Below, piece by piece: positions 51,877-59,559 of a stretch of 64,000 nucleotides of DNA. A program made the translations under genes and the position numbers. Positions within the stretch are counted from its first letter, which is position 1. Every line of letters begins with the position of its first letter. The notes beneath the pieces were generated by a model. It was not told the origin of the DNA. It was given only the letters and a program-made list of their open reading frames with translations, and searched no databases. This stretch comes from Gemmatimonadaceae bacterium (GTDB lineage: Bacteria; Gemmatimonadota; Gemmatimonadetes; Gemmatimonadales; Gemmatimonadaceae): assembly GCA_036496605.1 (NCBI GenBank), contig DASXKV010000004.1, forward strand, positions 124,001-188,000, written 5' to 3'.

Positions 51877-53505
51877 CTAGCGCCGCTTCGCTTGCGTGGT
51901 CGGCATGTGTGCCGCCTCGGCGGAAGCAATCGCGAACAGCTCCTTCTGCGTCGAGCCCTTATCGAGCAGATCGATCGCCTTCCGCAGTGGAGCGTCGTAT
52001 GGGAGATCGCGGCGCTTCGCGGCGGAGTCGCCAAAGGCGAAGCGAGCAACGCGCTGCTCCAGCAAACGATCGACATAGCGCGCCGATGCGTCGTAGTCCT
52101 TTCGATCGATCACGACACCCTTCGAGTCCAACCGGCGGAGCAACTCGTCACGCCACTGCGGCTGGACCGTGAAATCCTTGTTGACGGTCTTCGAGAGCTC
52201 GAGTGCGTAGTCGTAGTACGTCGTGTAGAAATCCTGCTGTTTTGCCGCGAGCGACTTCGCCAACCGTTGCTCCGCCGAGGTAAGCGTATCGTCTGCCACG
52301 ATCACGTCCGGCGTGATGCCGCCACCGCCGTAGACGAGTCGCCCGGCGTCCGACTTGTACGCCGGACGATTCTTCTTGACGCTCTCCGTCTCGGACGTGG
52401 TGTCGGGCTCCTGCTCGACGAAATGGCCATTCTCGAACTTCCGCTCCTTCTGAATGGAACGACCGCTCGGTGTGTACCATTTCGCCGTCGTCAATTTGAG
52501 CGCGTAACCGCCGTCGAGATTGAAGACGGACTGCACGAGTCCTTTGCCGAAGCTCGTCTGACCAACGATCAGGGCGCGGTCGTGATCCTGAAGAGCGCCT
52601 GCGACAATCTCCGACGCCGACGCCGTGTATTCGTCCGTGAGAACGATGAGCGGAGTCGTCGGCACCGCGGGACTTCCATGCGCAACGTATGGCTGCGTTT
52701 CGCCGTTGCGTGCCCGAATCGAGGCGATCTCCTGGCCATCCTTGAGGAACAAGTTGCTGATGACCAGGCTCTGATCGAGGATGCCACCTGGATTACCGCG
52801 GAAATCGAGAACGATGCCGCGTACGTTCTGCCTCTGCAGAGAACGCACAGCGTCCTGAACTTCCTGCGCGGCCGTCTCGTTGAATCGATCGAGCGGGATA
52901 TAACCGATCTTCTCACCGTTCGAGCCGAAGGAAATCTCGTAGCGCACCGCCGGCACATGGATGATCGCGCGAGTGAAGTGCACATCGATCGGGCCCGTGA
53001 CACCAGGACGTGCGAACTTGACGTTGACTTTCGTACCGGGCGGGCCCATCAGGGCGTCCTGCGCCTGCTGCGTCGTCCATTTGACGACGTGGATCGTGTC
53101 GATCTGGACAATTCGGTCGCCCTCACGGACGCCACCCGCCTCGGCGGGCGTGTTCGGGAAGACTTTGCTGATCACGATCTGGTCCTGCTGCGGCTCGATT
53201 TGCATTCCGATGCCGGCATAACGACCGCCGGTATTCGTCGTGAAGGCCTTCAATTCCTTGGGCGCAAACAGCTCGCTATATGGATCGTTGAGTTCTTTCA
53301 CCAAGCCTCTGGCCGCTTTCTCGTAGAGCTGGCCTGCGTCGAGGGTGTCGACATAGCGCTCGTTTACGAGTTGCAGAACCTGGTCGAGCAGGGCCTGACC
53401 GCCGCGCGTGACGCGCGACTGCAGCACGAATCCGCCAGCGAATAGCGGCACTACAACAAGGCTGGCGACGACGAATTTGCGAGAACGGATCATCCGTGAC
53501 ATCAA
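51877..53505 (-). CDS. carboxy-terminal processing protease (S41, CtpA/Prc-like)
   Basis: The 542-residue protein has an N-terminal membrane helix and a PDZ domain (about 90-165, GGVREGDRIVQIDTIHV). The S41 catalytic core has LDFRGNPGGILDQS, the nucleophile Ser in TASASEIVAGAL and the Lys in TSFGKGLVQ. A C-terminal helical extension of about 150 residues follows. It trims C-termini of periplasmic proteins, in many bacteria together with lipoprotein adaptors. Several Met codons at the start make the first residue uncertain. Confidence 0.95.
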   Translation of the reverse strand: MMSRMIRSRKFVVASLVVVPLFAGGFVLQSRVTRGGQALLDQVLQLVNERYVDTLDAGQLYEKAARGLVKELNDPYSELFAPKELKAFTTNTGGRYAGIGMQIEPQQDQIVISKVFPNTPAEAGGVREGDRIVQIDTIHVVKWTTQQAQDALMGPPGTKVNVKFARPGVTGPIDVHFTRAIIHVPAVRYEISFGSNGEKIGYIPLDRFNETAAQEVQDAVRSLQRQNVRGIVLDFRGNPGGILDQSLVISNLFLKDGQEIASIRARNGETQPYVAHGSPAVPTTPLIVLTDEYTASASEIVAGALQDHDRALIVGQTSFGKGLVQSVFNLDGGYALKLTTAKWYTPSGRSIQKERKFENGHFVEQEPDTTSETESVKKNRPAYKSDAGRLVYGGGGITPDVIVADDTLTSAEQRLAKSLAAKQQDFYTTYYDYALELSKTVNKDFTVQPQWRDELLRRLDSKGVVIDRKDYDASARYVDRLLEQRVARFAFGDSAAKRRDLPYDAPLRKAIDLLDKGSTQKELFAIASAEAAHMPTTQAKRR

Positions 53506-53802: not shown

Positions 53803-54690
53803 TCAGACGCCTCGCGCCGCCAAGACGTAATCCACGAACCAGTCGCGCTGCTGTTGTCGAACGGACACGCTCCGCACTACACCGGTCGATTCTAGCATTT
53901 CATGGGCCGGTTGAAGCACTCGCTGCAAGTGTGACGGGTATCGCTGCATCAGTGGCAACAGCTCTTTGAGACGATCGAGAGACACCCGCCAAGTCAGCAC
54001 TCCGTCCGCTCGTGCGACCTCGAGCAATCGATAAAGTCGTCGAGCGACTGGAGAGGCGAGATCGAGGTAACGCGTCACCGACAACGACGACGTGAAACGG
54101 CCAGCGAGATTCTCGCGGATTGGCGGCGCGATCACGACGCGTGCGACGCCGGGTTCGCCGCTCGCGTCGCCGTCGAACAGGGCGAGCTGGTCGCGATCGG
54201 CGACGCGACGTCGTTCGATGACCACCGAGCTCAGGATCGAGAACCTTGCCTCGATCGTTTTTCCCGCGGCGTGGCTGTAATAACTCCCGGCCGATTCGAG
54301 CGTCGTCCGTTCGAGCCGAGCAAGCGCGCCGCGCAGCTGCTCGTATGTGCGGCCATCGACCTGCCTACCCATCGACCGAAGGAAGGCGTGTAACGTGAAG
54401 GTGATTGCACCGTCGGCAGGCTCGCCAGCTTCATGGAAGCGATGCATCAGCTCGACGTAGACGTCCTGGTCGAACGTCCCCGGTAGGCGGTCGCCGGGAC
54501 TCGGGAGCACACGCCAGCGCCCGCCGTCATCCGCCGAGCAACTGATAGCGGAATCTTCTGCGGAATCGCTCAGTCGGAAGAGCGGCAGCCGCTCCAGCGA
54601 CCGATCGAGCAGAACGACGCGCGCCGTGACGCGTCGCCGCGCGGCGAGGCTCATAGCCGGGAAGGTGACGCTGTACTGAGCGGTGGGCAA
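53803..54690 (-). CDS. replication initiator protein A (RepA/RPA plasmid-type) homologue
   Basis: The 295-residue protein follows the RPA family (twin winged-helix plasmid initiators). Segments are RLPGTFDQDVYVELMHRF, TFTLHAFLRSMGRQVDGRTYEQL, ALARLERTTLESAGSYY, FSILSSVVIERRR, LSVTRYLDLASPVARRLYRLLE and LKELLPLMQRYPSHLQRVL. These proteins bind iterons and open plasmid or secondary-chromosome origins. Here it is flanked by ordinary chromosomal genes and I see no iterons or partner par genes beside it, so it may be domesticated. The TTG at 54690 or the ATG at 54654 is the start. Confidence 0.82.
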   Translation of the reverse strand: MPTAQYSVTFPAMSLAARRRVTARVVLLDRSLERLPLFRLSDSAEDSAISCSADDGGRWRVLPSPGDRLPGTFDQDVYVELMHRFHEAGEPADGAITFTLHAFLRSMGRQVDGRTYEQLRGALARLERTTLESAGSYYSHAAGKTIEARFSILSSVVIERRRVADRDQLALFDGDASGEPGVARVVIAPPIRENLAGRFTSSLSVTRYLDLASPVARRLYRLLEVARADGVLTWRVSLDRLKELLPLMQRYPSHLQRVLQPAHEMLESTGVVRSVSVRQQQRDWFVDYVLAARGV

Positions 54691-56799: not shown

Positions 56800-57345
56800 C
56801 TACCTGATTTCCTCTCGACCGAGCGCGGCGCGGACCGCCTCGCGCATCGCCACGACTGCTTCGTCGCGCGCCGCCGGCGAGTTGTCGCGAACATGGATCT
56901 CGATCCCATCGGCAACGGGAACGCGCCGCCAGCTCCACGGTTGGTCTTCATCCGTCTGGGCCACGGCATCGGCCCGGACACCAAGTGCCGGCGCCAACGA
57001 GGTTGCAACGCGTCGCTCGAGTGCGTCGCCGGTGAGGTCGTGCAGCTCGATCTTGATTGTCTCGAGCGTCGTGCCCTCGCGCTGCCGGATCTTGATGGCG
57101 AGGAGTTGAAGAAAGTGGCGGTAGTTGTACGTCGCCGCGGTTCCCGTTCCTTCTGGCCGGTCGAGGAGACCGTTCGCGACGTAGAAACGTATCGATCTCG
57201 CACTCGGAGCTACGCGAGCGGACGCGTTGGTGGGACGCATGCCGGTGGCGTCGACCAGGGCGGTCACGTGAGCAGCCAGGCCGCGCGCATTCCAAGGCGC
57301 GTGCCGGGAGTGAGCGCGAAGCAGCGAGATTGGCGACTCAGTCAT
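56800..57345 (-). CDS. MerR-family regulator
   Basis: The 181-residue protein has a MerR-type helix-turn-helix in its middle (SARVAPSARSIRFYVANGLL, then YNYRHFLQLLAIKIRQREG). The N-terminal extension is about 35 residues. The C-terminal part has no Cys or other obvious ligand site. Its start lies inside the end of the upstream kinase-like gene (8-base overlap), so the two are coupled and likely act together. Confidence 0.85.
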   Translation of the reverse strand: MTESPISLLRAHSRHAPWNARGLAAHVTALVDATGMRPTNASARVAPSARSIRFYVANGLLDRPEGTGTAATYNYRHFLQLLAIKIRQREGTTLETIKIELHDLTGDALERRVATSLAPALGVRADAVAQTDEDQPWSWRRVPVADGIEIHVRDNSPAARDEAVVAMREAVRAALGREEIR

Positions 57346-58528
57346 GCGCGTTGGCTGTTGCTGTTCGGTCCAGCTTTCGGTTGGGCAGCGTGATTGTCAC
57401 AGTCGTTCCAGCGTCGGCGGTGCTGTCGAGGGTGATCGCGCCGCCATGCTCGTCGAGAATGCGCTGACACAGTGCCAACCCGACACCGGAGCTGCCAGCT
57501 TTCGTGGTGAAGAACAATTCGAAGACTCGTGGCAGCAGCTCGCGCGCGATTGGTGGTCCGTCGTTGTGCAGACGACACCGCCAGCCGCCACCAGGCAGTG
57601 TCGTCGACGTCAATGTGAGATCACTGCCTTCAGGCGCGGCATCGACGGCATTCGACAAAACGTTGGCGAACACGTGAGCGATCTGCTCTGCGTCGACGTC
57701 GCATAGTGCGCGCGGTTCCGCGGGGCGATGTCGGGCCACGAGCGCCTTGCTCTCGAGCAGCCCGCGCTTGGCCGATAGCACGCTGTGCAGAACACCATCC
57801 GGATCCGTGGACGCAACGCGCAGCGGAGGCGGGCTGCCGTACTCGAGCAGCGCGCTCACGACACCATTCATCCGCTCCACTTCACGCAGGATGCGGCCCA
57901 CGTTCCTCTCGATCACCGGATCGTCGCGAACGCGAAACCGTAGTAGCTGCGCTGCCGAGGAGATTCCGAAGAGCGGATTGCGCAGCTCGCGAGCGATGCC
58001 CGCGGACACTTCACCGATCGCCTCCAACCGGCGTTTCTGAGTGAGGCGATGCACGGCCTCGGCGCGACCAATCGCCGACGCGACCTGCGAGGCGACGCTC
58101 GCAACGACTTGCTCGAGCTCCAGAATTCGGCTCGGCGAATCGACGTTGGACACGACGACGGTCACGGCACCGAAGACGTCGCCGCTCGACATCGGCACGG
58201 TGATCTCCTTCGCGCGCGCGAGATCGCGCTCGACGGGCGCCGACTCGTGGCGGGCGCGCCGCCAGCTCGGTGTGAGTGACGCGATCAACGACTCGCGTTC
58301 CTCGTCGAAACCGACGCTATGAGCAAGTTCGAACTCTCCAAGACTCGGACCGACGATTGCGATCGCGACCGCTTCGCAGATCGCGACGCGACGAATCTGT
58401 TGCGCAGCCTCGTTGAGCACTCGCTCGAGCAAGACGGTCGGCGCGAGCGCAATCGCCGCGTCGAGTACCTGGCGATCGGTGCTCGCTTGGCTTCCGCCGA
58501 CTTCTGATTGAATCGAAGGCGCGCTCAT
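57338..58528 (-). CDS. GAF-domain histidine-kinase-like protein lacking the phospho-acceptor histidine
   Basis: The 396-residue soluble protein has a GAF domain (about 30-155), a DHp/HisKA-like helix pair (about 165-235) and an HATPase_c domain (about 270-385). In the H-box the usual AHE-x-RNPL reads IARELRNPLFG, so Arg180 (codon CGC, 57989-57991) replaces His. The N box (FANVLSNAVDAA) and G2 box (SSGVGLALCQRI) look intact; the G1 box is altered to NDGPPI. It could bind ATP but not autophosphorylate on His. The only coupled gene is a MerR regulator, not a response regulator. Confidence 0.85.
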   Translation of the reverse strand: MSAPSIQSEVGGSQASTDRQVLDAAIALAPTVLLERVLNEAAQQIRRVAICEAVAIAIVGPSLGEFELAHSVGFDEERESLIASLTPSWRRARHESAPVERDLARAKEITVPMSSGDVFGAVTVVVSNVDSPSRILELEQVVASVASQVASAIGRAEAVHRLTQKRRLEAIGEVSAGIARELRNPLFGISSAAQLLRFRVRDDPVIERNVGRILREVERMNGVVSALLEYGSPPPLRVASTDPDGVLHSVLSAKRGLLESKALVARHRPAEPRALCDVDAEQIAHVFANVLSNAVDAAPEGSDLTLTSTTLPGGGWRCRLHNDGPPIARELLPRVFELFFTTKAGSSGVGLALCQRILDEHGGAITLDSTADAGTTVTITLPNRKLDRTATANAHD

Positions 58529-58560
58529 GAGTGGATATTACGAGCGCCGATATTAAAGCG

Positions 58561-58593
58561 AAACGGCGGAGCGCGTTGAGTGCGTTCCGCCGT
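58561..58593 (-). terminator. hairpin downstream of the acidic/basic H1-like gene
   Basis: A 12-bp stem with one mismatched or G-U pair (58563-58574 with 58582-58593) has a seven-base loop. It lies 24 bases past the stop at 58617 on the minus strand and is followed there by TTT and another T-rich stretch. Confidence 0.7.
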
Positions 58594-58616
58594 CCGCGAG
58601 CGATTTGGAGTTGGAG

Positions 58617-59234
58617 CTAGCGACGGCCGCGCTTCCGAGCGCCCTTCTTGGCGCCGCCTCGCTTCTTCGCACCACCACGCTTTGCCCCACCGCGCTTAGC
58701 GCCGCCACTCTTCTTGGCGCCGCCCTTCTTTGCAGTCTTGCGCGCACTCTTCTTGGCGCCGCCTTTCTTCGCGGCAGTGCGAGCACTCTTTTTCGCCCCT
58801 GCCTTCTTGGCGCCAGTCCGCTTCTTGGCGCCGCCGGATTTCTTGGCGCCTCCAGCTTTGGATGCGGTTTTCGCCGCGCCGCCGGTCGAGCCACCGCTCA
58901 TCGCCGAACCGCCACCAGAGCTCAATGTGCTGCTGCCCGCGGTACCCGAGGTCCCGCCGGTTGAGGGTCGACGACCACCAGCGGGGAAGGCTTCGCCCTC
59001 CTCTTCTTCCTCCTCGGTGAAGGTACCCTCTTCAGCTTCCTCGTCCTCATCCTCGTCGGTGCTGTCCCAGAGATCGTCGCTGCCACGAGTCCCGGACCAC
59101 CCGCCCTCCTCTTCCTCCTCCTCGTCGTAGTTCCCGCCGCCGGAACCGCCGCCGCCACCATAACCAAGATCATCCGCGTCGTCGTCGCGATCCGAGAACC
59201 GAAACTCCTCGTGCAACTCGTCACCCCGCGGCAT
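58617..59234 (-). CDS. two-part acidic/basic histone-H1-like protein
   Basis: The 205-residue protein has two opposite halves. Residues 1-80 are acidic with Gly and Glu/Asp runs (DDDADD, DEEEEEEGG, DEDEDEEAEEG). After a Ser/Gly/Thr linker (about 85-115), residues 115-205 are built from repeats of the GAKKSG/GGAKK type and end in RKRGRR. The basic tail resembles the H1 C-terminal domain and should bind DNA; the acidic half could modulate that or contact polymerase. A GGAGG ribosome site fixes the ATG at 59234. No family name can be given with confidence. Confidence 0.8.
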   Translation of the reverse strand: MPRGDELHEEFRFSDRDDDADDLGYGGGGGSGGGNYDEEEEEEGGWSGTRGSDDLWDSTDEDEDEEAEEGTFTEEEEEEGEAFPAGGRRPSTGGTSGTAGSSTLSSGGGSAMSGGSTGGAAKTASKAGGAKKSGGAKKRTGAKKAGAKKSARTAAKKGGAKKSARKTAKKGGAKKSGGAKRGGAKRGGAKKRGGAKKGARKRGRR

Positions 59235-59559
59235 GCGCGCCTCCTGAGGCAAATGTGATGTCAAACGTAATTCGTACGATTCAAGCGACCCAACGCCGCG
59301 CCCTCGGCGCACGTCGTGTGCCGATCCCGCGCGCGTGCAGCATCGCGATGCGTTCGGTGATCGCACGCATTAAAACGCGTGCAGGTACGTTGACGCAACA
59401 CCCTAGTACAATGTCATGGCGTTTCCGTCAAGTCGTGCGCGTCATTGGGTCCGTCGCGAGAACGCACGAGAGCGCGTTACGCAATCACGTAACCATCGTG
59501 TCGAGTCAATCGCCGGCGGCTGCGCGGAAAATGCTGCCATTGTTCGGCGCGCCGACTTG
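59235..59559. other. intergenic region upstream of the acidic/basic protein
   Basis: There is no credible gene in these 325 bases. A possible minus-strand promoter is TTGCGT (59393-59398) and TTTTAA (59370-59375) with a 17-base spacer, about 130 bases before the ATG at 59234. Longer open frames here have no protein-like character. Confidence 0.4.

Follow-up and report, generated by a model that had tools for sequence, protein, structure and literature searches.

The window, the 64,000-nucleotide stretch of DNA analysed here, carries on its minus strand a gene for a 205-residue protein divided between an acidic head set with aromatic residues and a basic tail like that of histone H1, and the profile counts below mark it as a lineage-specific, nearly universal single-copy protein of one bacterial family. 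Given that one conserved copy is present in most sampled members, it is probably a chromosome-binding protein of the family's own making. The reading preferred here, to which we give a probability of roughly 0.55, is of a disordered nucleoid protein whose tail would lie on DNA while its acidic-aromatic head would restrain the tail and dock a partner.

The gene and its charge-divided product

The open reading frame at 58617-59234 is a real gene, as its conserved start, ribosome-binding site, purifying selection and synteny attest. Its translation begins with an ATG at 59234 and ends in a stop codon at 58619-58617. The start regions compared (n = 55) carry AGGAGG in 38 cases and GGAGG in 14, and whole-gene dN/dS against the closest complete relative (L002) is 0.17. 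Other frames are open across the same stretch, as GC-rich DNA allows, and might suggest functionless low-complexity sequence or a misread frame; that explanation is hardly credible and was rejected, since start and ribosome-binding site are kept among relatives, gene order is conserved, and dN/dS in the gene's own frame lies well below 1. The gene and its parts are as follows.

58617..59234, minus strand: complete coding sequence with its stop codon, 205 aa (P0001); homologues share start and architecture
59240..59245, minus strand: Shine-Dalgarno sequence AGGAGG, just 5' of the ATG
58992..59234, minus strand: acidic-aromatic head, residues 1-81, delimited by the charge split at 81, column counts and stronger purifying selection
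58947..58991, minus strand: junction, residues 82-96 (AFPAGGRRPSTGGTS), where relatives have the AT-hook-like RGRP/RGRKP motif and the window protein a degenerate version
58620..58946, minus strand: Gly/Ser linker, then the H1-like GAKK tail with KRGRR at its end; relatives have basic Lys/Ala/Pro- or Gly/Ala/Lys-rich tails

A sequence-only reading had described an acidic N-terminal half followed by an H1-like GAKK half with a sharp charge split between them, and this description holds, its coordinates being exact and eight GAKK units readable in the tail. Residues 1-81 carry a net charge of -32 with 44 per cent Asp/Glu, and residues 82-205 a net charge of +38 with 31 per cent Lys/Arg and 0 per cent Asp/Glu, while the whole protein nets only +6. 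The best-split charge difference is 70; when the residues were shuffled 20,000 times, its mean was 11.9 (sd 5.0) and its maximum 40. The kappa-like value for charge segregation is 0.51. Among the 221 open reading frames of the window of at least 100 aa, that of the gene ranks first in charge difference per residue, narrowly (0.265 vs 0.264 for a 106-aa frame); its absolute difference is 66, vs 25-39 for the next five listed.

The same reading saw no structured domain, which the searches bear out. Against Pfam the window protein matched no family at E 0.001 or at E 0.1, and the head profile matched no solved structure at E 0.1. An AlphaFold2 model built on a 52-row alignment has a mean pLDDT of 47 and a pTM of 0.16 and shows neither helices nor strands long enough to report, so that the protein is predicted to be fully disordered. 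PHROGs likewise returned no family for the window protein, and a phage protein was discarded as a candidate.

AT-hooks bind DNA, and an AT-hook-like GRP stands at the junction between acid and base in 24 of 52 relatives, 16 of which flank it on either side with basic residues. When these linkers were shuffled 1,000 times, GRP turned up in 3.6 of them on average and in 9 at most; past the junction, the tails of the 52 orthologues hold just two GRP in 6,482 residues. Other relatives read RRRGRKP or RRRGRRP at the junction. The window protein contains no canonical AT-hook, and has GGRRPS at that place. Tails vary among relatives in length and in letters (GAKK, KPAA, APAKK, GATK) but stay basic. 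A second short motif, SIFET, SVFET or SIFEV, follows the junction in seven sequences (L021, L047, L051, L052, L082, L083, L099). The strong charge segregation together with the predicted disorder would also suit a condensate protein that binds RNA or ribosomes, its segregated charges making it a polyampholyte able to coacervate with RNA; this is very unlikely, as the AT-hook-like motif over-represented in the junction suggests DNA and no tie to RNA was found.

Distribution and constraint

A search with the window protein itself gave matches in 27 of 60 genomes (its own included), all within the window's own family. When 395 genomes of the phylum were searched with an acidic-head profile (A1), 122 matched, every one of them in that family. 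The head of this architecture, which the sequence-only reading had proposed to seek in other Gemmatimonadota, is common close to home, in 122 of the 140 sampled genomes of the family (a count not independent of the profile, since it includes the window's genome and the genomes that supplied profile rows), but matched in 0 of the phylum's 255 other genomes (253 unlisted genomes being counted as outside the family, in a list ordered by kinship). Copy number is nearly always one. A second match occurs in three genomes (G001, G245, G380), and the listed rows for G001 and G245 lie at a contig end or close to one. The 18 genomes of the family that did not match include fragmented ones.

Profile A1 comprises 26 rows, two of which (L015, L017) are truncated by contig ends; the contig-edge pieces L003 and L028 and the other proteins L029 and L030 were omitted. 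Alignment A2 and the counts over 52 rows use 55 distinct complete sequences minus L081, whose tail is frame-shifted and open into the kinase, and L097 and L086, for which a wrong start had been picked; mean values and the charge correlation are taken over all 55. In L081:9630-12131 (G100) the tail of the orthologue stands in another frame, with QEGAGQEG replacing the AKK repeats, and the 834-aa frame runs on into a downstream PAS/GAF/histidine-kinase gene, through a frameshift, a genuine fusion or an error of assembly.

The head of the window protein begins with MPRGDE and continues through DDDxDDxGYGGG, a Tyr followed by an Asp/Glu run and then GGW, SDDLWDS and more Asp/Glu runs. The approximate consensus of the 52 complete orthologues is MPRGDE..FSDRDDDxDDLGYxGGG..SYDDDDEEDGGW..KDxSDDLWDS..DDDxEE..EEEEExDxFG. 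Positions W46 and W56 are aromatic in all 52 rows, Y36 in 49, F13 in 43, Y25 in 42 and F83 in 41. Both halves are kept across the alignment, and net head charge lies between -28 and -41 in all but one of the 52 retained orthologues, the exception standing at -62. In that one (L027, from G017, genus g16) the head is about twice as long, its charge being spread over ~160 residues, and the tail is GAKK/GARK; its MerR gene is 9.3 kb off, on the opposite strand (region L076).

Across eight chosen pairs, dN/dS is 0.05-0.17 in the head vs 0.18-0.32 in the tail and lower in the head in 8/8, these being simple Nei-Gojobori counts with synonymous sites partly saturated. By these sequence comparisons the acidic half is a conserved signature and the most constrained part of the protein. 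Loss of that half in relatives had been put forward as grounds for dropping the idea; the half is retained, with the lower dN/dS of the two, and this check does not refute the idea. Across the 55 sequences, head charge and tail charge are uncorrelated (Spearman 0.18, p 0.20), which leaves close matching of the two charges, or a simple charge-balance model, unsupported.

Neighbourhood and transcript

Synteny was compared over 41 regions, namely the window's own and 40 chosen, mostly well-assembled contigs from the 122 matched genomes. The features beyond the stop codon are as follows.

58545..58612, minus strand: stable hairpin (-26.1 kcal/mol, z -3.1) immediately 3' of the stop codon, without a strong T run
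57338..58528, minus strand: histidine kinase (HisKA, HATPase_c); a kinase homologue is near the gene, on either side, in 23/41 regions
56800..57345, minus strand: MerR-type regulator (PF13411), near the gene in 39/41 regions
53806-54690: replication-initiator-A-like gene (PF10134), downstream of the gene in fixed order, 32/41 regions
51880-53505: PDZ/S41 protease, downstream of the gene in fixed order, 32/41 regions

The two regions without MerR (L091, L095) are both cut by contig ends, and in L068 and L076 MerR is on the other strand. A response regulator with an HD domain is near the gene in 25 of the 41 regions. A search of 22 chosen genomes found the MerR gene without this protein in sister families (14 regions) and in G032 of the same family, with no head match and no split-charge frame; in G032 the MerR gene lies on a long contig with no such protein upstream of it. 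MerR also stands without the protein in the stretch examined of G010 and G028, fragmented genomes of the same family. By eye, response-regulator-like frames lie upstream of MerR in L116 and L120. An obligate MerR partner was ruled out on the sister families and G032.

Downstream structure with z below -2 recurs in 41 of 52 relatives (against mononucleotide shuffles), and with the hairpin 3' of the stop it suggests that the gene may be its own transcript. A consensus scan at the gene listed neither a terminator at the hairpin nor a promoter; the hairpin is a possible transcript end.

The regulators around the gene (MerR, kinase, response regulator) and their conserved order, the AT-hook-like junction, and fixed Trp, Tyr and Phe amid acid that are more specific than bulk charge would need might all be read as signs of a CarD-like transcription adapter, in which tail and junction motif would anchor to DNA and the head would recruit RNA polymerase or a regulator in the manner of acidic activation regions. 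This is an unlikely reading, as the protein has no CarD/CdnL domain, the downstream hairpins suggest a separate transcript, and the occurrence of the same MerR gene alone in sister families indicates neighbours that are independent of the gene.

Proposed role and comparison with known systems

The nucleoid reading draws together the two-part architecture, single-copy conservation, head constraint, aromatic positions, predicted disorder and synteny described above. In the manner of H1-type tails, the Lys/Ala tail would bind DNA with no marked liking for particular sequences, and in many relatives a single AT-hook-like motif at the junction may assist it. The acidic head would stay off DNA and compete with it for the tail through charge attraction, limiting or buffering DNA binding, and its fixed Tyr and Trp could form a specific docking site for a partner protein or for the tail of another copy. 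We infer DNA binding from the known behaviour of AT-hooks and of H1-like tails such as that of AlgP (PMC9239181); head-tail contact and partner docking are suggested by the constraint on the head. Against this reading, RNA, ribosomes, membranes and polyphosphate are further possible ligands of Lys-rich tails, the window copy is without a canonical AT-hook, and head and tail charges do not covary.

A bolder and rather doubtful form of the idea is an H1-like protein with a built-in chaperone, the head being a specific ligand of the tail (its own or that of another copy) or of a partner, such that one disordered molecule would compact the chromosome and control its own loading, an invention made within one family and present in nearly all its members.

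H1-like tails are already known from bacterial proteins. For a nearly family-universal protein of this kind whose conserved part, by alignment and structure prediction, is a disordered acidic-aromatic head, no earlier description was found in open-licence papers. A search of that literature by lineage, nucleoid and histone terms and architecture returned no paper apparently on this protein, which does not prove absence, least of all in subscription journals. If it does bind DNA, the protein would be a candidate for a family-specific architectural protein of the chromosome and would offer a simple bacterial model of charge-block proteins on chromosomes, which have been studied mostly in eukaryotes.

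AlgP and PhaF of Pseudomonas, the latter with a phasin as its N-terminal domain, share the Lys/Ala/Pro H1-like tail, and many relatives here are KPAA- or APAKK-like, a likeness of composition since low-complexity tails allow no meaningful homology test. Gemmatimonas accumulates polyphosphate, and it might be supposed that the protein tethers polyphosphate or other granules to the nucleoid, with the tail binding both DNA and polyphosphate and the head organising spacing. AlgP would be the precedent, having a disordered KPAA tail like that of histone H1 and being associated with polyphosphate granules, whose spacing it sets (PMC9239181). AlgP has a predicted helical N-terminal part and a net charge of +55 (PMC9239181), whereas here the head, the best-conserved region of a protein of +6, is acidic and disordered; neither a helical nor a phasin domain was found in it, as it has no predicted structure and no Pfam match. 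With no granule gene recognised among the named neighbours, a granule tether is quite unlikely.

Chlamydial Hc2 and the Burkholderia-type H1-like proteins (PF07382, NF038052, NF038053) have a comparable Lys/Ala-rich tail and are not known to carry such an acidic head. Ten of the 52 relatives matched HC2 at E up to 0.1 and 13 matched NF038053, while the window protein had no PF07382 match and scored 17.5 bits on NF038053 vs a curated cut-off of 80; the H1-like model matches are probably compositional. A GAKK tail of the same composition occurs in another protein (L030, G016:C16), where, however, the basic stretch comes first and a SWIB-like domain, recognised by eye, follows. A short frame in G002:C603 (L029) consists of little but GAKK/GGRK repeats. 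PF02201 SWIB is present in 17 of 26 related genomes and HU in 11 of 11 searched.

The suggestion of a chaperone-plus-histone fusion survives as a workable analogy only. A histone of the PF00808 type was rejected, with no Pfam match, no predicted fold and PF00808 in 0 of 26 genomes searched, and the weak Pfam matches to acidic histone binders (BKRF4 in 2/52, YL1 in 1/52), like those to HC2, are probably driven by composition.

For the companion suggestion, an HMGA- or CarD-like fusion, the enrichment of GRP at the junction in relatives speaks in favour, and the missing GRP in the window copy and the missing CarD domain against. Myxococcus xanthus CarD has an acidic stretch beside an HMGA-like DNA-binding part, and the adjoining of acid to a DNA-binding-like part is the likeness here. 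It also has an RNAP-binding N-terminal domain and binds DNA; membership was rejected for the present protein, in which Pfam found no CarD/CdnL domain at E 0.001 or 0.1 and whose relatives mostly carry no more than one AT-hook-like motif. HMGA2 is described as disordered, with AT-hooks and an acidic terminus. Several canonical AT-hooks mark HMGA, and here there are none in the window protein and a single junction GRP in 24 of 52 relatives; the acidic part comes first, aromatics stand within the acid and the H1-like tail is long, no homology having been demonstrated. The membership features tested for HC2, CarD, HMGA and histones all failed, and the best reading, by analogy, is that the protein would work like a tail protein of the H1, HMGA and AlgP kind.
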